Shown: positions 1,422 through 50,697 of the stretch, in pieces
How positions within the stretch are numbered: the stretch's first letter is position 1
How the letters are laid out: the number at the start of each line of letters is the position of its first letter
NCBI GenBank assembly: GCA_034522055.1
Contig: JAXHLS010000002.1
Location: forward strand, 1,054,001-1,118,000
Direction of reading: 5' to 3'
Length of the DNA: 64,000 nucleotides
DNA from: Gammaproteobacteria bacterium
GTDB lineage: Bacteria > Pseudomonadota > Gammaproteobacteria > JAABTG01
Position numbers and translations under genes: made by a program
The notes under the pieces: model-generated
What the model saw: the letters and a program-made list of their open reading frames with translations, nothing else
Databases searched by the model: none
What the model was told of the DNA's origin: nothing

Positions 1422-2783
1422 TCAGCCCAACAGGCGCACGAAGTCGTTGAAGAAAGCCAGTCCCATGAGGCCCGCCAGCATGGCCAGGCCGAGGCGCTGC
1501 CCCGCCAGCTGCGCCTCCTCGGAAACGGGTTTTCCTTTAAAAAGCTCGATAAGGTAATACATCAGGTGACCACCATCCAGTAGCGGGATAGGCAACAGGT
1601 TGAGGATACCCAGGCTGACGCTCACCAGGGCCAGGAACTCCAGGTAGCGGGCCAACCCCACCTTGGCCGAATCCCCGGCATACTGGGCGATGCTGATGGG
1701 CCCGCTGAGGTTGTCCGCCGAGATCTGCAGGGTCAACATCTTCCAGATCATGGCCAGGGTCAGCCGCGTGACCTCCCAGGTCTTCGCCGCCGCGTTGCCC
1801 AGCGCCGCGACGGGGCCATAACGTTCCACCACATAGAGGGGGTGGGTCGCCAGATCGGGCGCCACCACCGCGGCCCCGATGCGGCCCACGGTGGCACCAT
1901 TGTCCCGGGTCGCCGCGGGCACCAGGTCGAGGATGTGCCGGCTTCCCCCCCGCTCCACCACCAGGCTGATGGCCTTGCCCGGCCGCGCCCGCACGTAGTC
2001 CACCCACGCGCGCCAGCCGCCGATGTCCTCGCCGTCGGCCGCCACCAGACGGTCACCCGCCTGCAGCCCCGCCGCCGCCGCCGGACTCCCCTTCTCGATG
2101 CGTCCCACCACGGGTTCGATGGCCGGACGCATGGGCTCCACCCCCAACTGGTCGAGGAACCCCCGGCGCGCCAGGGCATCCACGTCGATGGCCGAGGCGG
2201 CGATGGTCAGGGTGTGGTCGGCGCCGCCGGTATCCACCCGCACCAGGGCGTCATTGCCGTCCACGGCGGCGGTCGTCAGGGCCTGCATCACGCGATCCCA
2301 GCTGCGAGTGGCCGTGCCGTCCACGGCGATGATTTCGTCGCCGCCCCGCAGTCCCGCGCGGTCGGCCAAGCCCCCGGGCTCGACTTCCTCGACTACCGGA
2401 CGGAACCCGCCCACACCCACCATGAACATCAACCAGTAGGCCACCACCGCCAAGAGGAAATTGGCCAGGGGTCCCGCCGCCACCACCGCCGTGCGCACCC
2501 CCAGGGTCTGGTTGTTGAACGCCCGGTGTGCCTCCTCCGGGGGCACCTCGGCCTCACGCTCGTCCAGCATCTTGACGTAGCCGCCGAGGGGCAACATGGC
2601 CACTTGGTACTCGGTGCCATCGGCCCCCGCCCGGCGGCGCCACAGCGGCCGGCCGAAGCCCACGGAGAACCGCAACACCTTGACGCCGAGGCGCTTGGCC
2701 ACCAGGAAATGACCGGCTTCGTGGATGGTCACCAGCACGCCGATGGCGATGATGAAAAACACGATGGCGTTCAAGGTATCCAT
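1422..2783 (-). CDS. rseP: Site-2 intramembrane zinc protease RseP
   Basis: Inner-membrane protease that cleaves anti-sigma factors such as RseA and signal-peptide remnants. The zinc motif HEAGH is at residues 21-25 in the first membrane helix. Two PDZ domains fill the periplasmic loop (about 115-200 and 205-290), and the second metal motif, LLDGGH, lies near residue 400 in a late membrane helix. The 453-residue length matches the family. It sits 1 bp downstream of dxr, so translation is probably coupled, and bamA follows. Confidence 0.96.
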   Translation of the reverse strand: MDTLNAIVFFIIAIGVLVTIHEAGHFLVAKRLGVKVLRFSVGFGRPLWRRRAGADGTEYQVAMLPLGGYVKMLDEREAEVPPEEAHRAFNNQTLGVRTAVVAAGPLANFLLAVVAYWLMFMVGVGGFRPVVEEVEPGGLADRAGLRGGDEIIAVDGTATRSWDRVMQALTTAAVDGNDALVRVDTGGADHTLTIAASAIDVDALARRGFLDQLGVEPMRPAIEPVVGRIEKGSPAAAAGLQAGDRLVAADGEDIGGWRAWVDYVRARPGKAISLVVERGGSRHILDLVPAATRDNGATVGRIGAAVVAPDLATHPLYVVERYGPVAALGNAAAKTWEVTRLTLAMIWKMLTLQISADNLSGPISIAQYAGDSAKVGLARYLEFLALVSVSLGILNLLPIPLLDGGHLMYYLIELFKGKPVSEEAQLAGQRLGLAMLAGLMGLAFFNDFVRLLG

Positions 2784-2784
2784 G

Positions 2785-3969
2785 TCAGTTGCGTCTCCCC
2801 AGGTTCATCAGGTACTCGCCCGCCAACTGCCGGGCCTCGTCGTCGGCGGCCATGATGGTGGCGATATCCGTCGCCGGTACCGCCACGGCTCGACCGAGGA
2901 CGTGATCCACCACCCGCGCGATATCGGGAAATCTCAGGCGCCCGTCCAGGAACGCCGCGACCGCCGCCTCGTTGGCGGCATTGAGTATGGCCCCCGCGGT
3001 GCCGCCCGCGCGCGCCGCATCGAAGGCCAGCCCGAGACACGGGAAGCGCTCGGTGGAGGCCTCGCCGAAGGTCAGATTGACACCGGTCAGGGCCAAGGGT
3101 TCAACGCCCGAGTCCATGCGCTCCGGCCATGCCAGGCCGTAGGCGATGGGGGTGCGCATGTCGGGATTGCCCAGCTGGGCGAGCACGGAGCCGTCGCAAT
3201 AGCTCACCATGGAGTGGACGATGCTCTGGGGGTGCAGCACCACCCGGACATGGTCGGGGGTGGTATGGAACAGCCAGCAGGCCTCGATGACTTCGAGGCC
3301 CTTGTTCATCATGGTGGCGGAATCCACCGAGATCTTGCGACCCATGTCCCAGTTGGGATGATTGCAGGCCTCCTCCGGGGTCACCTCCGCCAGGGTGGCG
3401 GGGTCGCGGTCGCGGAACGGCCCGCCCGAGGCGGTGAGCAGGATCTGTCGCACGCCACGGCCGGCGAGGCCCTCGGCGAAGCGCGGGGGCATGCACTGAA
3501 AGACGGCGTTGTGCTCACTGTCGATGGGCAGGAGCTCGGCACCGTGGTCGCGAACCGCCCCCATGAAAAGGTCTCCCGACATCACCAGGGCCTCCTTGTT
3601 GGCCAGCAGCACCCGTTTACCGGCCTCGGCGGCGGCCAGGGTGGGCATGAGGCCGGCGGCGCCCACGATGGCCGCCATCACGTAGTCGGTCTCGGGCAGG
3701 GTGGCCACGGTAGCGAGGGCGTCGCGGCCGGCCAGCACCTCGGTGGCGCTCCCCTCCGCCCGCAACACCGCCGCCAGCCGCCCGGCGGCGTCCTCGTCGA
3801 CCATGACGGCCCAGGCCGGTTGCCAGCGCCGGCACTGCTCGGCCATGCGCTCCACGTGGCCGTTGGCCGTGAGGGCGACCACGTGGAAACGCCCGGGGTG
3901 GCGCGCCAGGACATCCAGGGTACTGACCCCGATGCTGCCCGTGGAACCGAGGATGGTCACGCCCTTCAC
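2785..3969 (-). CDS. dxr: 1-deoxy-D-xylulose 5-phosphate reductoisomerase
   Basis: Converts DXP to 2-C-methyl-D-erythritol 4-phosphate with NADPH, the first committed step of the MEP isoprenoid pathway. The NADPH loop GSTGSIG is at residues 8-14, LANKEALV at 122-129, and the metal ligands D150 and E152 lie in LPIDSEHN, at the same numbers as in E. coli. ASGGPFRD and NHPNWDMG follow. Length of 394 residues is typical. The start overlaps the end of cdsA by 4 bp (ATGA), and uppS upstream uses the same pathway's product. Confidence 0.97.
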
Positions 3970-4808
3970 GCCACACGCCCCATGCCGTAGAGGCCGAGCA
4001 CGAACAGGGGCGCTGCCGCGGTGAGACTGTCGATGCGATCCAGCACGCCACCATGGCCCGGCAGCAAGCTGCCGCTGTCCTTGAGGCCCGCCTCGCGCTT
4101 GTACAGGCTCTCGGTGAGGTCACCCAGTACCGAGGCCGCCACGGTCAGGGCCACCAGGGTGAGAAAGGGCACCAGTGACTCCCCGAAACCCAGGGGCTCG
4201 CCCACCGCCAGGGCCAGCACCAGCACGGCAACGACGGCGCCGGCCACCCCCTCCCAGCTCTTGCCCGGGCTGACCCGCGAGGCCAGCCGGCGGCTGCCCC
4301 AGCGCCGTCCCACGAAGAAGGCCGCCGTGTCGGCACCCCAGATGAGCACCAGCAGGAATAACACCAGCCACGGGCCGCCGGCCTCCTGGCGGTGCAGCAC
4401 CACCAGGGCGAACCAGGCCGGGACGAGGATCAGCAGGCCGCTCGCCCCACGGCTCCACGGGCCGCCGGTGGTGAAAACACCCTGGAGCTGAAATCGCACC
4501 ACCAGGGCGGCCGCCAGGGCCCACCACACCAGGGCCAGCAGGAGCAGCAGGGGGCCCGCGGCGGGGCGCGCCAGCAGCCCGTAGACCAGCCCCAGGACGG
4601 CCGCCGTCACCAGTACATAAGCCACCCGGCGGCGGGTATCCCCCAACCCCGCCATGGCCGACCATTCCCAGGCGCCACCGAGCACGAAGAGGCCCAGCAG
4701 GGCCGCGAACCCGGGCGGAGACAGCAGCAGGATGGCCGCCACCACCAGGGGAACCAACACCAGGGCCGTCAGCACCCGCTGGGTCAGCGAGGACAGGGGG
4801 CGGCTCAT
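3966..4808 (-). CDS. cdsA: Phosphatidate cytidylyltransferase CdsA
   Basis: Integral membrane enzyme making CDP-diacylglycerol from phosphatidate and CTP, the branch point of phospholipid synthesis. The 280-residue protein is almost entirely hydrophobic helices. The family signature is in the C-terminal part: [12 protein letters not shown], then [21 protein letters not shown] and [14 protein letters not shown], which carry the conserved acidic and lysine residues. It lies 3 bp downstream of uppS and overlaps dxr by 4 bp, a tightly coupled operon. Confidence 0.96.
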
Positions 4809-4811
4809 GGC

Positions 4812-5573
4812 CTACGCACCCTGCACCCGGGCCACCTGCTCCCCCGTCTTGCCGTAACGCCGCTGGCGCCGGGCGAAATCGGCGAAGGCCGCGAGCAGGT
4901 CGCCGCGACCGAAATCGGGCCACAGCACGTCGCTGAAGTAGAGTTCCGTGTAGGCCAGTTGCCACAGCAGGAAGTTGCTGATGCGCTGCTCGCCACCGGT
5001 ACGGATGAAGAGGTCCGGTTCCGGATGGCCGGCCAGCGACAGGGCGGCCGCGAAGTGTTCCAAGTCGATATCCGCCGCCGCCAGGGTGCCGGCCTGTACT
5101 TCGACGGCCAGCCGGCGGGCGGCCTCGACGATGTCCCAGCGGCCACCGTAATTAGCGGCGATGAAGAGGTGGAGGCCGGTATTGTCCCGGGTGAGTTCCT
5201 CGGCCTCGACGATGCGCTGTCTGAGGGTGCTGCTGAAGGGCCTGCGGTCACCGATGACCCGCAGCCGCACGTTGTTGCGATGCAGGCGGCGGGACTTCTG
5301 CTCCAGGGTGGACACGAAGAGCCCCATCAACATCCCCACCTCGTCCTCGGGACGCTGCCAGTTCTCGCTGCTGAAGGCGAACAGGGTGAGGACCTCTACG
5401 CCGAGCTGGCCGCAGGCCTCCACCACCATTTCCACGGTGTCCGCACCCGCTTTGTGGCCTGCGAAGCGCGGCAGATGGCGGCGCCGGGCCCAGCGACCGT
5501 TGCCGTCCATGATGACGGCCAGATGCCGGGGCCGCGAATCCTCGCGGAGCGTCGGAGGTTGCTCGGAACTCAT
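4812..5573 (-). CDS. uppS: Undecaprenyl diphosphate synthase (cis-prenyltransferase)
   Basis: Condenses isopentenyl diphosphate onto farnesyl diphosphate to make the C55 carrier for peptidoglycan and O-antigen. The start at 5573 (MSSEQPPTLRED) puts the catalytic aspartate at D23 in IMDGNGRWA, close to the usual family position; reading from further upstream would add an unconserved tail. Other signatures: HKAGADTV, TLFAFSSENW, and near the end DLFIRTGGEQRISNFL with the metal-binding Glu shortly after. 253 residues, typical. Upstream is frr, 52 bp away. Confidence 0.96.
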   Translation of the reverse strand: MSSEQPPTLREDSRPRHLAVIMDGNGRWARRRHLPRFAGHKAGADTVEMVVEACGQLGVEVLTLFAFSSENWQRPEDEVGMLMGLFVSTLEQKSRRLHRNNVRLRVIGDRRPFSSTLRQRIVEAEELTRDNTGLHLFIAANYGGRWDIVEAARRLAVEVQAGTLAAADIDLEHFAAALSLAGHPEPDLFIRTGGEQRISNFLLWQLAYTELYFSDVLWPDFGRGDLLAAFADFARRQRRYGKTGEQVARVQGA

Positions 5574-41468: not shown

Positions 41469-43310
41469 TCACGCCGTCTTCAGGTTGATATCCGCAGGCC
41501 CACCGGGCGGCGCCACGGCCACGCCCTCCTCCGCCTGGGCCTGCTGCAACTCCCACATGCGGGCGTAGGTGCCGTCCATGGCCAGCAGTTCGCGGTGGGT
41601 GCCGCGTTCGATGATACGCCCGGCGGCCATCACCAGGATGGTATCGGCATCCACCACCGTGGACAGCCGGTGGGCGATGACGAGGGTGGTGTGGTGAGCG
41701 GCCACCTCGTCGAGGGCCTTCTGGATGGCCTTCTCGGCATGGCTGTCGAGGGCCGACGTAGCCTCATCGAACACCAGGATCCGCGAGGCCTTGAGGATCA
41801 CCCGCGCGATGGCCACCCGCTGCTTCTCGCCCCCGGACAGCTTGAGGCCCCGCTCCCCCACCCGGGTATCGTAACCATCCGGCAGAGAGGCGATGAAGTC
41901 GTGGATGTGGGCCAGCCGCGCCGCCTGCTCCACCTCCTCGCGGCGCGCTGCCGTGCGGCCGTAGGCGATGTTGTAGTACACGGTGTCGTTGAACAGCACC
42001 GTGTCCTGGGGAACGATGCCGATGGCCCGGCGCAGGCTGTCCTGGGTCACGTCGCGGATGTCCTGGCCGTCGATGGTGATGGCGCCGCCGGTGACGTCGT
42101 AGAAGCGGAACAGCAGCCGCGCCAGGGTGGACTTGCCGGCGCCGCTATGGCCCACCACCGCTACCTTGTGGCCGGGCGGGATGACGAAATCCACGTCCTC
42201 GAGGATGGCGCGCTCGGGCTGATAGGCGAAATCCACGTGGCGAAAGGCCACCTCGCCGTCCGTCACCCGCAGTTCCGCGGCATCGGGCCTGTCGGCGATC
42301 TCCGCGGGCGTCTCCAGCAGCCGGAATACCCGGTCCATGTCCGCCAGAGCATAGCGGATCTGGCGATAGACGATGCCAAGGAAATTGAGCGGGATGAAGA
42401 GCTGCAGCAGGAAGGCATTCACCAGCACCAGGTCGCCGATGGACAGCTCGCCGGACACCACCCCGGCGGCGGCATAAAACATGATAACGGTGACGCCCAT
42501 GGCGATGATGGCGCCCTGACCGAAGTTCAAGGCGGACATGGAAGTCTGGCTGTTCACCGCCGAGTATTCCCAGTCGGCCAGGGTGCGGTCGTAACGCGCC
42601 ACCTCGTGGGCCTCGTTGGTGAAGTACTTAACCGTCTCGTAATTCACGAGGCTGTCCATGGCCTGGTTGTTGGCCTCCGACTCCTGGCGGTTCATGGCAT
42701 GGCGGAAGTGCATGCGCCAGTTGGTGACCTTGAGGGTGAACACCACGTAGACCACCACCGTGCCCAGGCACACCAGGGCGAAGGTGGGGTCGTAGTTCAC
42801 CAGCAGGATGCCGATGATGAGCCCGAACTCCACCACCGTGGGCAGGATGCTGAAGGTGAGATAGTTGAGGATGGAGCTGACACTGCGCGAGCCCCGCTCC
42901 AGGTCGCTGGACACCGCGCCCGTCCGGCGCTCCAGGTGATAGCGCAACGCCAGCTCGTGAAGGTGGCCGAGCACGCGGTTGGAAAGGTTGCGCATGGCAT
43001 GGTAACGCACCCGCGCGAACACCGCGTCCCGTAACTCGTTGAACAAGGTGGCGGCCAGCTTCAACGCGCCATAGGCCGCGAGCAGAAACACCGGCAGGGC
43101 GAGCAGGGTCTCGGGGCTCTGCTCCAGGGCGTCCACGATGCCCTTCAGCACCAGCGGGATCCCCACGTTCGCCACCTTGGCCAACAGCAGCGCCGCCAGG
43201 GCGAACAGCACCCGCCCCCTATAGTCCCAGATGAAGGGCAGCATCAGGCGCAGGTTGCGCAGGTCGCTGCGGTTGCGGTGAGGATCTTCGGTGTATCCCT
43301 GGGTGTACAT
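41469..43310 (-). CDS. Atm1-type ABC exporter (permease-ATPase half-transporter)
   Basis: 613 residues. N-terminal membrane domain of six helices starting RNLRLMLPFIWDYRGRVLFA and LAKVANVGIPLVLKGIVDAL, which resembles Atm1/ABCB7-like exporters of glutathione-linked metal or sulfur species. The nucleotide-binding domain has Walker A GHSGAGKST, signature LSGGEKQRVAIARVIL and Walker B ILVFDEATSALD. The family functions as a homodimer in the inner membrane. Substrate is inferred, not shown. Possibly co-transcribed with the S24-like gene downstream. Confidence 0.9.
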   Translation of the reverse strand: MYTQGYTEDPHRNRSDLRNLRLMLPFIWDYRGRVLFALAALLLAKVANVGIPLVLKGIVDALEQSPETLLALPVFLLAAYGALKLAATLFNELRDAVFARVRYHAMRNLSNRVLGHLHELALRYHLERRTGAVSSDLERGSRSVSSILNYLTFSILPTVVEFGLIIGILLVNYDPTFALVCLGTVVVYVVFTLKVTNWRMHFRHAMNRQESEANNQAMDSLVNYETVKYFTNEAHEVARYDRTLADWEYSAVNSQTSMSALNFGQGAIIAMGVTVIMFYAAAGVVSGELSIGDLVLVNAFLLQLFIPLNFLGIVYRQIRYALADMDRVFRLLETPAEIADRPDAAELRVTDGEVAFRHVDFAYQPERAILEDVDFVIPPGHKVAVVGHSGAGKSTLARLLFRFYDVTGGAITIDGQDIRDVTQDSLRRAIGIVPQDTVLFNDTVYYNIAYGRTAARREEVEQAARLAHIHDFIASLPDGYDTRVGERGLKLSGGEKQRVAIARVILKASRILVFDEATSALDSHAEKAIQKALDEVAAHHTTLVIAHRLSTVVDADTILVMAAGRIIERGTHRELLAMDGTYARMWELQQAQAEEGVAVAPPGGPADINLKTA

Positions 43311-44734: not shown

Positions 44735-44932
44735 ATGTCCAATGCAGAAGCGTCCCGCCCCGCCGGTATGCACCGGCCCCAACGCGCCGCCGAGTGCTTC
44801 GCCGAACACTCCGCCGCGGAGAAGCACCGCCTGAAGAGTTTCGGCGATGTCTTCGACGAAGCCCTGTTCGATGAGGCCGTGGACTTGGTACTCCGTAAAC
44901 TCAAGCGACTGGAAGACGAGGGCCGGGCATGA
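44735..44932 (+). CDS. Small helical protein coupled to the Rad50-like ATPase
   Basis: 65 residues (MSNAEASRPAGMHRPQRAAE...). The C-terminal half is a likely amphipathic helix (LFDEAVDLVLRKLKRLEDEG). An AAGGA ribosome-binding site precedes the ATG. The stop overlaps the ATPase start by 4 bp, so translation is coupled. No recognised domain; it may be an accessory subunit of the ATPase. Confidence 0.7.
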   Translation: MSNAEASRPAGMHRPQRAAECFAEHSAAEKHRLKSFGDVFDEALFDEAVDLVLRKLKRLEDEGRA

Positions 44933-46800
44933 TCATTCATCGCATCAAAGCCGAGAATTTTCTCAAATACCATCATCTGGAACTCGCGGACCTGCCCACG
45001 GAAGGGCTCATCGCCATCAGTGGCGACAACGAGTCGGGCAAGAGCGCGATCGGCGAGACCATCTGTTTCGCCCTCTTCGGCCGCACCTTCGCGGTGGCCC
45101 CGGACAACCTGGATAAATTCATCCGCTGGGGCGAGATGCGGGCCTCGGTGGAACTCGAGTTCTCCGCCCGGGATAACCGGCGGTTCGTCCTCACCCGACT
45201 CGTCGACCGCGACCATAACCATTCGGTGCGCCTGGCCGCCGCAGACGACCCCGATCAGTTCATCGCCCGGGGACTGGAATCCGTCGCCGCAGCCTTGCGG
45301 GAATCCATAGGCTTCGACTACGAGGAATATGTGGAGGCCTTCTATCTGGCTCAGCGGGAGATCACCACCGCCCACTCCCACAGCGAGGCGGTGCGGGTGA
45401 TGGCAGGCATGGCCCCCATGGAGACCTGCCAGCGCGAGATGAAGGACGAAATCACCCTGGAGTCCGAAGCCATCGCGGGCCTGGAGGCCGAGGTCAAGGA
45501 GGTGGACCAGGCCATCGAAGAGCTGGGCTATGACGAGGATCGACTGCCACAGCTGACGCACATGGATCAGGTGCTGAAGACCCAGGCCGCTCTGGTGGAG
45601 GAACGCCTCGGGGCCCTGGATGCCACCACCGTCACCTACCAGAAGCAGGAACCCACCCTGCGGGCCACCGAGCACTCCAAGCGCGTGGCCTCCAGGTTCG
45701 CCCTGCTGTTCCTCCTGATCGCCCTCGCCGCCCTCGTCCCCTGGGGGCTCATCACCTATCTGCCCGACTCCGACATCACGGCCCAGGTGGCCCCCCTGGT
45801 GGAGGGCCGGGTACAGTTGCCGTGGCTGCTCTATGGCGGCGGTGCCAGTGCGGTGCTGTTCCTGCTGTTGTGGATCCGTTCCGGGGTGATGGGCGGCAGG
45901 ATACGGGGCCTGCGTCAGGCCGGCCGCGATCTCAAGGCCGCCTGGGAGGCCCTCGATGGTCTGGACGAAGGGCTGCGCGCCCACCAGGAGGCCCTGGCCG
46001 ATGTGGTGCCGGAGCGGCCCACGCCCGAAGCGGGGCAGCGCGAACGCGACATGGAACTCATCGCCAGCGCCCGCGCCTCCGGTGACGATGTGCGGCATGC
46101 CTTGGGGAGCGACGAGGCCTGGCTGACCCGTACCGCGGGACGCATCGCCCAGCGCTTGGAGGACGTGACCACCGAGCTAGAAGACGCCCGCGGTGTGGAG
46201 GCGGAGTACAACCGCATGCAGGAGATCAAGCAGGATCTGGAGGACCGGATCGCGGGCCACCACCATCGCATCCGCCTGCGGGAAATGGCCGATAACCTGG
46301 TGGAAGGCGCACTGCGCCAGTTATCCCACACCTTCACCGGCAACCTGCGGGGCCTGTCCGGAGTCACCCTGCCCCTGTTCACCGAGGAGCGCTACCAGCA
46401 CGTCATGATCGATGAAGACCTCACGGTACGACTGTTCTCCAACGAGAAGCGCGACTATATGGACATGGACGAGGTCTCCACCGGCACCCAGCGCCAGGTA
46501 TTGCTGGCCCTGCGCCTGGCGCTGGCCCAGGAACTCATCAACCGCGTGGTGGAAGGCAAGCAGTTCGTGTTCCTCGACGAGCCCTTCGCCTTCTTCGACG
46601 AGACCCGCATGCGCAGCGCCCTCAACGTGCTGCCGCGACTCAGCCAGGACATTCCCCAGGTATGGGTCACCAGCCAGGACTTCCCGGCGGAGGTGACTTT
46701 CGACCGTCACGTCCATCTGGCGCACAACGCCGATAGCTATCCGGATGAGCCGCCGCGGGAGACCCATCCGGCGCTGCCCCCCCAGGAAGAAAACCCATGA
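44929..46800 (+). CDS. Rad50/SMC-like ATPase with two transmembrane helices at the apex
   Basis: 623 residues. N-terminal half of the ABC head: ENFLKYHHLELAD, Walker A GDNESGKS (32-39), Q-loop EAFYLAQREI. A coiled coil follows, then two transmembrane helices at about 255-280 and 298-322 (FALLFLLIALAALVPWGLI; LLYGGGASAVLFLLLWI), then a second coiled coil. The C-terminal head has signature VSTGTQRQVLLALRLALAQE and Walker B QFVFLDEPFAFFD. There is no CxxC zinc hook or hinge; the membrane pair takes that place. No Mre11/SbcD partner lies adjacent. Function unknown. Confidence 0.8.
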   Translation: MIIHRIKAENFLKYHHLELADLPTEGLIAISGDNESGKSAIGETICFALFGRTFAVAPDNLDKFIRWGEMRASVELEFSARDNRRFVLTRLVDRDHNHSVRLAAADDPDQFIARGLESVAAALRESIGFDYEEYVEAFYLAQREITTAHSHSEAVRVMAGMAPMETCQREMKDEITLESEAIAGLEAEVKEVDQAIEELGYDEDRLPQLTHMDQVLKTQAALVEERLGALDATTVTYQKQEPTLRATEHSKRVASRFALLFLLIALAALVPWGLITYLPDSDITAQVAPLVEGRVQLPWLLYGGGASAVLFLLLWIRSGVMGGRIRGLRQAGRDLKAAWEALDGLDEGLRAHQEALADVVPERPTPEAGQRERDMELIASARASGDDVRHALGSDEAWLTRTAGRIAQRLEDVTTELEDARGVEAEYNRMQEIKQDLEDRIAGHHHRIRLREMADNLVEGALRQLSHTFTGNLRGLSGVTLPLFTEERYQHVMIDEDLTVRLFSNEKRDYMDMDEVSTGTQRQVLLALRLALAQELINRVVEGKQFVFLDEPFAFFDETRMRSALNVLPRLSQDIPQVWVTSQDFPAEVTFDRHVHLAHNADSYPDEPPRETHPALPPQEENP

Positions 46801-47564
46801 AGCTCCCTGCAATTGCCGCAACCGCTGCGCTCATGGTGGGCGTGGTGGCGGCCCTGCCCGCCGCCCACGCCGACTGGCGGGATCTCCTCAAGAAGGCCGA
46901 GGACACCGTCAAGGGTGCCACCGGGGATTCCGGGGGCTCGGCGGCCACCGCGCTGTCAAGCACGGAGGTGGCCAAAGGCCTCAAGCAGGCCCTGGACGTG
47001 GGCATTCAGCGCGCCATCGAGTACCTGGGCCGGGAGGGTGGCTTTCTCGACGACGCCGCGGTGAGGATCCCCATGCCGAAACCGCTCCAGCCGGTGGAGT
47101 CCACCCTGCGGCGCTTCGGCCAGGACGAGCTCGCGGATGACTTCGTGGAGACCATGAACCGGGCCGCCGAGCGGGCCGTGCCCGAGACCCTCGACATCTT
47201 CCGCGACAGCGTCCAGGCCATGACCCTGGACGATGCCAGGGAGATCCTCAACGGCCCCGACGACGCCGCCACCCAGTACCTGCGCCGCAGCTCCGGGGAA
47301 CGTATCCAGCAGGCCATCCGCCCCCTCGTCGAAGAAGCCACGGACAAGGCCGGCGTCACCTCGGCCTACAAACGCATGGCAGGCCAGGCCGGCTCCATGC
47401 TGTCGGGCTACATGGACACCGGCAGCCTCGATCTCGACCAGCATGTCACCGCCAAGGCGGTGGACGGCCTGTTCCTCAAGCTGGCGGAGGAAGAGCAACG
47501 GATCCGCGAGAACCCCGCGGCCCGCTCCACCGAGCTGTTGAAGAAGGTGTTCGGCGGCGGTTGA
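46797..47564 (+). CDS. DUF4197 exported protein
   Basis: 255 residues with a signal peptide (AATAALMVGVVAALPAAHA). The mature part starts DWRDLLKKAEDTVKG and contains the DUF4197 pattern: LSSTEVAKGLKQALDVGI, FLDDAAVRIPMPKPL, FVETMNRAAERAVPE, DAATQYLRRSSGERI. All-helical. Its start overlaps the ATPase stop by 4 bp. Function of the family unknown; presence in this operon suggests an envelope role. Confidence 0.88.
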   Translation: MKLPAIAATAALMVGVVAALPAAHADWRDLLKKAEDTVKGATGDSGGSAATALSSTEVAKGLKQALDVGIQRAIEYLGREGGFLDDAAVRIPMPKPLQPVESTLRRFGQDELADDFVETMNRAAERAVPETLDIFRDSVQAMTLDDAREILNGPDDAATQYLRRSSGERIQQAIRPLVEEATDKAGVTSAYKRMAGQAGSMLSGYMDTGSLDLDQHVTAKAVDGLFLKLAEEEQRIRENPAARSTELLKKVFGGG

Positions 47565-47665
47565 CCTCCCGCCCCTGGCTGCGGCCGTGGCCCGGGGCAG
47601 GATACCGTGGCAGACATTGCAGCCACCCGGCCGAGGCCCTAGTATTGCCGGCTCACTGCAACCTG

Positions 47666-48307
47666 GTGCCCCCCGTGCTCCGTCTAATCGTCCTGTCCGC
47701 CCTGCTCGTGCTCTCCCTGTCCGCTACCGCCCAGACGGTACGCTATGCCACGGACCAACTGAGCATTCCACTGCGCTCCGGCACCAGCACCGGCCACAAG
47801 ATCCTGCGCATGATCAAGAGCGGCACCCCTCTCACCGTGCTGGAGACCTCCGATGCCGGCTACACTCGGGTGCGCACCGGCGACGGCGCCGAGGGCTGGG
47901 TCCTGACCCGTTATCTCATGTCCAGCCCCGCCGCCCGAGAGCAGTTGTCCACCCTCTCGGAGCGGGTGGCCGAACTCAGCGCCGAAAACGCCCGGCTGCG
48001 GGATAGCGCCGGCGAGTTGGAGTCCACCCGGGAGGCCCTGCAGGAGACCCGCGCCGAACTGGAGGCCATCCGCCAGACCGCCGGGCGCACCCTGGCCATC
48101 GAGGAAGAGAACAAGCGTTACCAGCAGGAGGTGCTGGAGGCCCGGGAACGCCTGCGGGGGCTGGAACTGGAGAACGCCGCCCTGAAAGACGAATCCGGTC
48201 GCGACTGGTTCCTCATGGGCGCGGCGGTGGCCCTGGGCAGCCTGCTCTTCGGCCTCATCATCCCGCGCATCCCGTGGCGCCAGCAACGCCGCTGGGACCA
48301 GTTTTAG
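47666..48307 (+). CDS. SH3-domain membrane protein (YgiM-like, TIGR04211 type)
   Basis: About 213 residues from GTG 47666 (GTG 47675 also possible). Signal peptide LRLIVLSALLVLSLSATAQ, then a bacterial SH3 domain (YATDQLSIPLRSGTSTGHKI, GWVLTRYL). A long coiled coil follows (LSERVAELSAENARLRDSAG...), then a C-terminal membrane helix (FLMGAAVALGSLLFGLIIP) and a basic tail (WRQQRRWDQF), the layout of E. coli YgiM. 110 bp after the DUF4197 stop, same strand. Confidence 0.88.
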   Translation: MPPVLRLIVLSALLVLSLSATAQTVRYATDQLSIPLRSGTSTGHKILRMIKSGTPLTVLETSDAGYTRVRTGDGAEGWVLTRYLMSSPAAREQLSTLSERVAELSAENARLRDSAGELESTREALQETRAELEAIRQTAGRTLAIEEENKRYQQEVLEARERLRGLELENAALKDESGRDWFLMGAAVALGSLLFGLIIPRIPWRQQRRWDQF

Positions 48308-48957
48308 CGGCGTTGTCGGTTGCCAGGAGCAACCGATATCCGCGCCCGCAAAACGCCGAGTTTCCGTCGGCTGCCAAGAGCAGTCGACCTACGCCTCTGT
48401 CCTTCTCCCCAGGGGAAAGGGGAAATGGGAAAGGGAATAGTGAATAGGGAATAGGGAATAGGGAATAGGGAATAGTGAATAGTGAAAAGATTAACATCGG
48501 TGTGCCGGGGCTGCTGAAGCCGAAACGGTGGATCCGCTGCGCCTTTTCCAACTGCCAATCCTCCCTGACCTTCTCCCTTTTCGCGTCACTCGCGTCTTTC
48601 GCGGTTACGCTTTTTTGTAGGTCGGGATTCATCCCGACATCCGGCCCCGCCGTATGCGCCCCGCGCCAGGTGGAATCCCCGCCGGCGCGGCTGTCGGGCT
48701 AAAGCCCGACCTACAGCCCGACCTACAACCCGACGCACAGGTACACCGCCATCGCCAGTTCCCGGCGCACGAATGTAGGTCGGGATTCATCCCGACATCC
48801 GGCCCCGCCGTATGCGCCCCGCGCCGGGTGGAATCCCCGCCGGCGGGCTGTCGCTGTCGGGCTGAAGCCCGACCTACAGCCCGACCTACAGGCTGACCCC
48901 TGGCGCCAGAAAGAGGCGTAGGTCGGCTGCTCCTGGCAGCCGACGGGGGTAATCGAC
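48308..48957. repeat. 650-bp repeat cluster (families A, B and C)
   Basis: No gene. In order: family B palindromes of the GTCGGCTGCCAGGAGCAG type (about 48310-48340 and 48366-48396); family C element with a 7-bp tandem array (48410-48615); family A head/tail elements at about 48616-48640, 48690-48734, 48774-48800 and 48850-48892; and a final family B copy at about 48914-48945. Families A and B share the outer GTAGGTCGG. This is the densest repeat cluster in the window and lies between convergent genes. Confidence 0.8.
48433..48481 (+). repeat. 7-bp tandem repeat (GGGAATA/GTGAATA)x7
   Basis: Seven consecutive 7-bp units: GGGAATA, GTGAATA, four GGGAATA, GTGAATA, then a degenerate eighth unit GTGAAAA. 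The related element at 57425-57605 has about three units, so copy number varies. Confidence 0.85.
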
Positions 48958-50406
48958 CTACGAGCTTCCGAGCCCCGCCCGCATGGCCTCCCCATACTCC
49001 TTCAGGGCCGCCAGCACCTGCCGCGATGCGGCGTCCGTGCGTTCGCTCTCCAGGCGTTCGATGGTGGCGAAGTAGTCTTCGAGGCCGAGTCCGGTGCCCG
49101 CCTCGGGCGACAGCAGTCGCCGGCGCCGGTATTGCTCCCAACACCGGCGCTCGTCGGCATCCAGGGTCTCGGGGTGATTGCGGGCACGAAAGCGGAATAC
49201 CAACTCCTCCAGGCGCTCGTCGGCGAAGGTGGGGATATCCGCCAGGGCCTCCGGCGGCCCCGCCAGCAGGACATCGAGGGCCCGCCGATCCCCATCACCG
49301 ATAAACCCGCCGCTATAGAGGGCCACCTCCGGGTCCTGGGGTGAAGGGGGCTCGATGCGCTGGAACACCCGATGCATGCGGGCCGTGAGGTCCCCGGCCT
49401 CCCCGAGGGCGGCGGCATGGCGGGCGATGGTGGCGTGGTCCAGGCCGATGCGCTCCGCCGCCACACCGTCCAGGGTGTTGAGGGGTACCACCACCGGGGC
49501 GTGATTGATAAGGACCACCTTGAGGGGCGGCCGCGCCACCCCTGCAGGCAGGTGATCCGCGGTACTGAACAGCCATTCCCGCAATGCCGTCTCGTCGGCG
49601 GTGATCACCTGTTGAGGGTCGTGGCGCAGATCGCACACCACCACGCCATTGCGGTTGGTGGGGTGCCAGGCCAGGGGCAGCACCGCTGTGGTGCAACCGG
49701 TGGCGGCGGGATAGCGGGCCGAGGTGTGGAGCACCGGCTCGCCGCTGCCCGGCACCAGCAACCGCGCCACCGCCTGTTTGCTGCGGTGGCCATAGACATA
49801 GTCGTAGAGCCGGGGCTGCCGGGCCTTCACCAGCCGTGCCAGGGCGACGGTGGCGCGGACATCGGCGAGGGCGTCGTGAGCAGCGCCGTGGGGAATGTCA
49901 TTGGCCGCCGTGAGTCCCTCCAGGCGGAAGCTGGGGTGGCCGTCCTCCCGCCGCGGCCACTGGATCCCCGCCGGTCGCAGGGCGTAGGTGAGGCGCACCA
50001 TGTCGATGATGTCCCAGCGGGAATTGCCGTTCTTCCATTCCCGGCCATAAGGGTCCATGAGATTGCGATAAAGGGTATGGCGGGTCACCTCGTCGTCGAA
50101 ACGCATGGAGTTGTAGCCCACGCCACAGGTGCCCGGACGGGCCAGTTCATGGTGGATGCGGGTGATGAACTCCCGTTCGGAGACCCCCTGTTCCAGGGCC
50201 CGTTGCGGCGTGATACCGGTGATGAGGCAGGCCTCGGGATGGGGCACGTAGTCATCCGTGGGACGACAATAGAGTTCCAGGGGGTCGCCCACCACCTCGA
50301 GGTCCTCGCCGGTGCGCAGGCCGGCGAACTGCACCGGCCGGTCCCGCCGCGGGTCCACGCCGAAGGTCTCGTAGTCGTGCCAGTAAAGGGTGGTCCCGGT
50401 GGCCAT
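48958..50406 (-). CDS. sbcB: Exodeoxyribonuclease I
   Basis: 3'-5' single-strand DNA exonuclease in recombination and mismatch repair. The start at 50406 (MATGTTLYWHDYETFGVDPR) brings the DEDD motif I (D, E in HDYETFG) to its normal place. Motif II region GVGYNSMRFDDEVTRHTLYRN and motif III HDALADVRATVALARLV follow. The SH3-like and helical C-terminal domains complete 482 residues, about the E. coli size. Strongly antiparallel to the repeat cluster downstream. Confidence 0.95.
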   Translation of the reverse strand: MATGTTLYWHDYETFGVDPRRDRPVQFAGLRTGEDLEVVGDPLELYCRPTDDYVPHPEACLITGITPQRALEQGVSEREFITRIHHELARPGTCGVGYNSMRFDDEVTRHTLYRNLMDPYGREWKNGNSRWDIIDMVRLTYALRPAGIQWPRREDGHPSFRLEGLTAANDIPHGAAHDALADVRATVALARLVKARQPRLYDYVYGHRSKQAVARLLVPGSGEPVLHTSARYPAATGCTTAVLPLAWHPTNRNGVVVCDLRHDPQQVITADETALREWLFSTADHLPAGVARPPLKVVLINHAPVVVPLNTLDGVAAERIGLDHATIARHAAALGEAGDLTARMHRVFQRIEPPSPQDPEVALYSGGFIGDGDRRALDVLLAGPPEALADIPTFADERLEELVFRFRARNHPETLDADERRCWEQYRRRRLLSPEAGTGLGLEDYFATIERLESERTDAASRQVLAALKEYGEAMRAGLGSS

Positions 50407-50697
50407 GGCGCTCCTTTGTCGGCAATAATCAGCGTGTACCGTGCTGCTGGCACGCCATGGTACGTGAGTTACCATGGTGCTGGCACCCTGCCCCCATGAT
50501 CCCGACGACGGCCGTCACGCCCATGAACCCGACGCCATCCCTGCCATGACCAGCCCGCCGGAGCAGCCCGCTCCCCACACCAGCATCTCGCCCTGGGACG
50601 CGCCCCCGCCCACCTGCGGCATGGAAAAAAAGAACCGGCGCATCGCCCGCTGGCCGTCCGACCGCGACGTGGCCCTCGATTGAGGCGCGACCAGGCC
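50407..50697. other. Gap between sbcB and the NahK-like gene, with a doubtful small frame
   Basis: An open frame at 50546-50683 (45 codons, MTSPPEQPAPHTSISPWDAP..., ending RIARWPSDRDVALD) precedes the kinase gene on the same strand. It is Pro-rich and without a recognised domain, so I list it as possible only. No other structure noticed. Confidence 0.35.

Follow-up and report, generated by a model that had tools for sequence, protein, structure and literature searches.

Results

A Rad50-like ATPase with a predicted membrane anchor and a small partner protein

We found that a 623-aa ATPase encoded in the window, the 64,000-nucleotide stretch of gammaproteobacterial DNA that was analysed as a whole, combines Rad50-type heads with two predicted transmembrane helices at the apex of its coiled coil, and that a 65-aa helical protein appears from gene order to be its sole constant, co-translated neighbour. 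Guardedly, we propose that the two form an undescribed machine, in which a membrane-rooted Rad50/SMC-type ATPase under the control of the 65-aa subunit may tie an ATP-gated clamp, on DNA or another cargo, to a process at the membrane that is peculiar to sulfur-oxidising Gammaproteobacteria and Magnetococcia. To our knowledge, the known Rad50 and SMC complexes are soluble and end in a hook or hinge; a family that ends in the membrane and has its own conserved small subunit would, if true, mean that the Rad50/SMC motor fold has been rebuilt as an envelope machine. The 65-aa, 623-aa and 255-aa open reading frames were confirmed in the window, both junctions between them being ATGA overlaps (Table 1).

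Table 1. Features of the locus in window coordinates; helices, loop and start sites are predicted.
Feature	Position	Strand	Remarks
65-aa small partner protein	44735..44932	+	N-terminus disordered, followed by a helical hairpin (H18-36, H42-61); conserved FxxYCxAExERRxNSGExFDExxYxxAMELVLxKLRxLEEEG; searches of Pfam, NCBIfam, PADLOC and PDB gave no match at a usable E-value
623-aa Rad50-like ATPase with apical transmembrane hairpin	44929..46800	+	
ATPase N-terminal head lobe	44929..45408	+	Walker A GDNESGKS (aa 32-39), Q-loop FYLAQREI (Q142); invariant or nearly so in 60 homologues; aligned with Rad50
ATPase TM1 (aa 255-277)	45691..45759	+	Continuous with N-terminal coiled coil
ATPase short periplasmic loop (aa 278-296)	45760..45816	+	Sequence poorly conserved
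ATPase TM2 (aa 297-319)	45817..45885	+	Runs into C-terminal coiled coil
ATPase C-terminal head lobe (aa 456-600)	46294..46728	+	Signature STGTQRQ (aa 517-523), Walker B FLDEP (E551), D-loop FFDE, switch His replaced by Gln583
Exported DUF4197 protein, 255 aa	46797..47564	+	ATGA-coupled to ATPase in this genus only; outside conserved module
TIGR04211 SH3-and-anchor (YgiM-like) protein	47675..48307	+	Likely start GTG 47675; ATPase neighbour in this genus only

The ATPase heads are of Rad50 type

The 623-aa protein matched AAA_23 (4e-12) and has the bipartite ABC head of Rad50, as the initial annotation had proposed. Its best relatives were Rad50 models and Rad50 structures in sequence searches of Pfam, NCBIfam and the PDB, and Rad50 also provided the top Foldseek matches. 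An SMC_N head signal was detected (43.5 bits, cut-off 40 bits), and AAA_27 (PF13514) gave 12.4 bits for the window protein against a cut-off of 22 bits and 23.1 and 22.0 bits for the homologues L011 and L159. Since Walker A, Gln142 of the Rad50-like Q-loop, the signature SxGTQRQ, Walker B with Glu551 and the D-loop were invariant or nearly so in 60 homologues, the ATPase looks active. In place of the H-loop switch histidine these homologues have an invariant glutamine (Gln583), and glutamine is likewise found in a second clade of carriers (described below) where the motif is readable, so ATP hydrolysis may be altered. Mean column identity in the 60 aligned homologues was 0.69-0.73 for the heads, 0.51 for the transmembrane segments, 0.38 for the loop and 0.35-0.39 for the coils, and the high conservation of the heads fits a specific task for them.

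The coiled-coil apex is predicted to be a transmembrane hairpin

Two mid-protein hydrophobic segments were present in all of the ~96 homologues measured; in L105 the second of them ranked just under a head segment in a simple scan. In an alignment of 60 homologues, Hessa energies summed across 19 residues came to ~0 for both segments compared to about +7.8 for the best segment elsewhere, and the K+R content fell from 29% before TM1 to 5% in the loop and rose again to 24% behind TM2. In the AlphaFold2 single-chain model (mean pLDDT 88.6), one helix (205-277) passes from the coil into TM1 and another (297-351) from TM2 into the coil. Insertion energies, charge bias and model together indicate that both segments are real transmembrane helices, and the possibility that they are soluble helices, which the initial annotation had named as one that would refute its claim, is disfavoured. 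The positive-inside statistics predict an N-in/C-in topology with cytoplasmic heads and a periplasmic loop of ~28 aa; this loop, conserved no better than the coils, may serve as mere anchorage. The 623-aa sequence has no CxxC zinc hook, its apex being the transmembrane hairpin; no hinge dimerisation domain was found in the ATPase by the AlphaFold2 model or Pfam, and no FtsX/MacB-type membrane domain by Pfam. The statement that two transmembrane helices replace the hook or hinge therefore stands.

An ordinary SbcC/Rad50 repair protein with soluble hydrophobic helices would account for the Rad50-like heads, but this explanation, already disfavoured, is very improbable in view of the transmembrane energies and the charge bias that all homologues show, the lack of a zinc hook and of a nuclease partner, and the presence of a separate Rad50-like/Mre11-like pair in the genome of the window. 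No Mre11/SbcD or YhaO-type metallophosphatase partner was seen among the recurrent neighbours of 115 loci, and the remark that none lies near the window ATPase proved correct: the Mre11-like gene lies elsewhere in the genome (L113 in G000:C6), where a gene for an 877-aa Rad50-like ATPase (1616-4249) adjoins that for a 381-aa Mre11-like metallophosphatase (4252-5397). This pair resembles YhaN/YhaO by inspection, and with it in the genome the 623-aa protein is not required for such repair.

The 65-aa protein accompanies the ATPase throughout

By profile recognition, the 65-aa gene was directly upstream of the ATPase gene in 110 of the 115 loci (79/80 gammaproteobacterial contig loci, 17/20 second-clade loci and 14/15 further gammaproteobacterial loci), which are not all independent because the first two locus sets share some lineages with the third. 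The five exceptions comprised four loci with an unrecognisable open reading frame in the same coupled position and one truncated contig. The stop-start geometry was most often a 4-nt overlap, and the translational coupling of the two genes that the initial annotation had described for the window is thus found at loci well beyond it. When 38 genomes were checked, the 65-aa gene was present in 17 of 17 ATPase-positive genomes, always adjoining the ATPase gene, and in none of the 21 that were ATPase-negative. A fold search with the 65-aa protein gave no match below E 8. Cullin-3, which showed marginal matches over 28 residues when the sequence profile was compared with the PDB (E 0.017), was rejected as a relative and the matches taken as chance; no profile match backed a kleisin identity. 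As no family in the libraries searched matched the 65-aa protein, routine annotation probably misses the pair.

Downstream neighbours differ between lineages

At the window locus the gene after the ATPase encodes a DUF4197 protein (PF13852, 243 bits against a cut-off of 24.9, 2.7e-72) with a signal-peptide-like start, in agreement with the proposal of a coupled, exported product. The SH3 gene (TIGR04211, 188 bits against a cut-off of 65, 1.3e-55) comes directly after it, as had been noted. Its GTG start is considered likely because the part of the reading frame upstream of this codon is outside the TIGR04211 match and a signal-peptide-like stretch starts there; as this start is ~110 bp past the DUF4197 stop, the SH3 gene is not part of the translational coupling. 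Only loci of the same genus (L003/L032/L179) had these two genes 3' of the ATPase. Neither occurred in this position at any other gammaproteobacterial locus, where the module was located next to RNase II-like, HrpB, hslUV, TetR/RND or other genes. The two are probably accidental or genus-specific riders, and the four-gene operon was rejected as a unit. The initial annotation had conceded that it would fail if homologues without the neighbours were the rule; that is the case for DUF4197 and SH3, whose adjacency is limited to one genus, but not for the 65-aa partner.

Other features of the region were recorded as well. Palindrome-rich, REP-like repeated elements (gtaggtcgggattcatcccgac ... gtcgggctaaagcccgacctac) occupy 48615-48890, beside short GAATAGG tandem repeats at ~48440-48490, and an exonuclease I (SbcB-like) gene at 48958-50475 on the minus strand, which matched the RTasSbcB profile at 6.7e-53, is convergent with the SH3 gene and is not a recurrent neighbour of the module. 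On the other side, an ordinary ABC transporter gene (41469-43310, minus strand) matched PADLOC mad3 at 2.7e-29.

The second clade belongs to another class, very probably Magnetococcia, and was monophyletic in the tree (support 100/99). Its ATPase is ~130 aa longer, mostly before TM1, and has an SxGVRxQ-like signature as opposed to SxGTQRQ in the gammaproteobacterial proteins. In L174-L177 and L145-L164, a long form of the ATPase showed ~100 extra residues before TM1 and almost none after TM2, which suggests an added domain or hairpin rather than a symmetric extension of the coil. A gene for an exported PBP_like_2 protein was next 3' of the ATPase in at least 13 of the 20 second-clade loci, most of these overlapping it or starting within 15 nt. 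In L145-L164 a conserved ATP-grasp gene upstream of the 65-aa gene and the PBP_like_2 gene downstream make up a four-gene arrangement. Among module carriers the ATP-grasp gene (glutathione-synthase-like) was confined to this clade; it was absent from 16/16 module-positive gammaproteobacterial genomes and was rejected as a general partner.

An exported protein encoded 3' of the module in two lineages, usually coupled to it, is what would be expected of the main rival explanation, mechanotransmission resembling FtsEX or MacB in principle, whereby ATP-driven engagement of the cytoplasmic heads would shift the transmembrane hairpins and so send a signal to a periplasmic partner or act on it (DUF4197 at the window locus, the PBP-like protein in the second clade). 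The model, in which transmembrane helices and coiled coils are continuous as single helices, is also consistent with such coupling. However, the periplasmic loop is very short and variable, an exported gene is lacking downstream at most gammaproteobacterial loci and the Pfam search gave no FtsX/MacB-type domain, and we consider this explanation unlikely.

The module is found mainly in sulfur oxidisers

The ATPase was present in 16 of 185 sampled gammaproteobacterial relatives, where any match weaker than E 1e-20 was to another ATPase, and in 34 of 398 genomes across the phylum; Sedimenticola selenatireducens is among the carriers of the module. With kinship ignored, dsrA was found in 14/16 module-positive compared to 46/169 module-negative gammaproteobacterial genomes (Fisher p 3e-6), and, likewise with kinship ignored, in 31/34 compared to 22/364 genomes across the phylum. 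The soxB and RuBisCO controls gave the same 14/16 in positives with a weaker contrast than dsrA, and since they trend the same way, the association is with the sulfur-oxidising autotroph lifestyle in general. Shared ancestry may explain part of the dsrA association. Several second-clade genomes have two dsrA copies, as reported for Magnetococcales (PMC6783814).

The enrichment of dsrA in carriers raises the question of an accessory role in sulfur oxidation or sulfur storage, with the module serving a membrane process special to reverse-Dsr organisms, and the Magnetococcales, to which the second clade probably belongs, do use reverse DsrAB (PMC6783814). We regard this role as rather improbable: the signal is a general one of sulfur autotrophs, ancestry confounds it, the module is missing from many dsrA-positive genomes, two gammaproteobacterial positives (G089 and G108) are without dsrA, and no sulfur gene was identified among the annotated recurrent neighbours.

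The ATPase was not found in any record of the plasmid or phage collections searched, and viral contigs gave distant N-terminal matches to it and nothing more. The module thus appears to consist of stable chromosomal genes in housekeeping surroundings, and the monophyly of the second clade agrees with this. An anti-phage system, in which Rad50 heads would detect the ends of invading DNA and the transmembrane hairpins would depolarise the membrane, gains some plausibility from the several defence ATPases with Rad50/SMC-like heads and from Lamassu LmuB, which was among the search matches of the ATPase; with no defence-island neighbours, no plasmid or phage carriage and a single copy, it is nevertheless improbable. 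The match of the ATPase to the PADLOC mad3 profile is non-specific, as the adjoining ABC transporter scores higher, and because an ordinary transporter next door scores this well, the mad3 profile alone is a poor marker of MADS. Classification as MADS or another defence system was rejected, there being neither a specific mad3 match nor MADS neighbours, and the surrounding genes being housekeeping ones.

Discussion

The best reading of these data, which we hold tentatively and somewhat short of an even chance, is an inner-membrane-tethered, ATP-gated clamp of the Rad50/SMC type with a dedicated, obligate small helical-hairpin subunit, its cargo being DNA if the family is a guide. By analogy with that family, two ATPase copies would dimerise via their ATP-bound heads, giving four transmembrane helices per complex; the 65-aa protein would attach to the heads or to the lower part of the coil and act there as a regulatory subunit, kleisin- or latch-like; and ATP binding and hydrolysis would open and close the cytoplasmic clamp on DNA held at the inner membrane. 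Several observations count against such a clamp: the glutamine in place of the switch histidine may alter hydrolysis, a lineage role specific to sulfur oxidisers is odd for a general chromosome tether, and the exported proteins coupled to the module in two lineages hint at a task in the periplasm. The initial annotation had read the locus as an envelope-linked SMC machine; the predicted anatomy agrees with this, and the overall interpretation is partly supported. The literature collection searched contained nothing relevant on DUF4197 or membrane-anchored SMC/Rad50.

Among known systems, Rad50/SbcC (SbcCD, Mre11-Rad50) shares with the 623-aa ATPase the ABC-type heads split by an antiparallel coiled coil and the Rad50-type Q-loop and Walker motifs. 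In contrast, the 623-aa protein has neither the zinc hook nor the Mre11 partner, and differs in its apical transmembrane hairpin, short coils, glutamine in place of the switch histidine, obligate 65-aa partner and signature, which is SxGTQRQ in the gammaproteobacterial and SxGVRxQ-like in the second-clade ATPases of the module. The general head layout is common to YhaN (SbcE)/YhaO, although the metallophosphatase partner gene is absent here; the YhaN-like L113 protein matched the profile of the module ATPase family over aa 1-132 only. Hydrophobic segments may likewise be present in the central part of Bacillus YhaN. With the SMC/MukB-type condensins the module has in common the SMC_N head signal, a coiled coil and possibly a small non-SMC subunit, but its ATPase lacks a hinge, is predicted to be membrane-anchored and has much shorter coils, and its partner is no kleisin by any profile. 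The type VII ABC systems (FtsEX, MacB, LolCDE) likewise couple ATPase heads to transmembrane helices; whereas these have FtsX/MacB folds and sizeable periplasmic domains, the helices of the module ATPase would be the apex of its own coiled coil, joined by a tiny loop.
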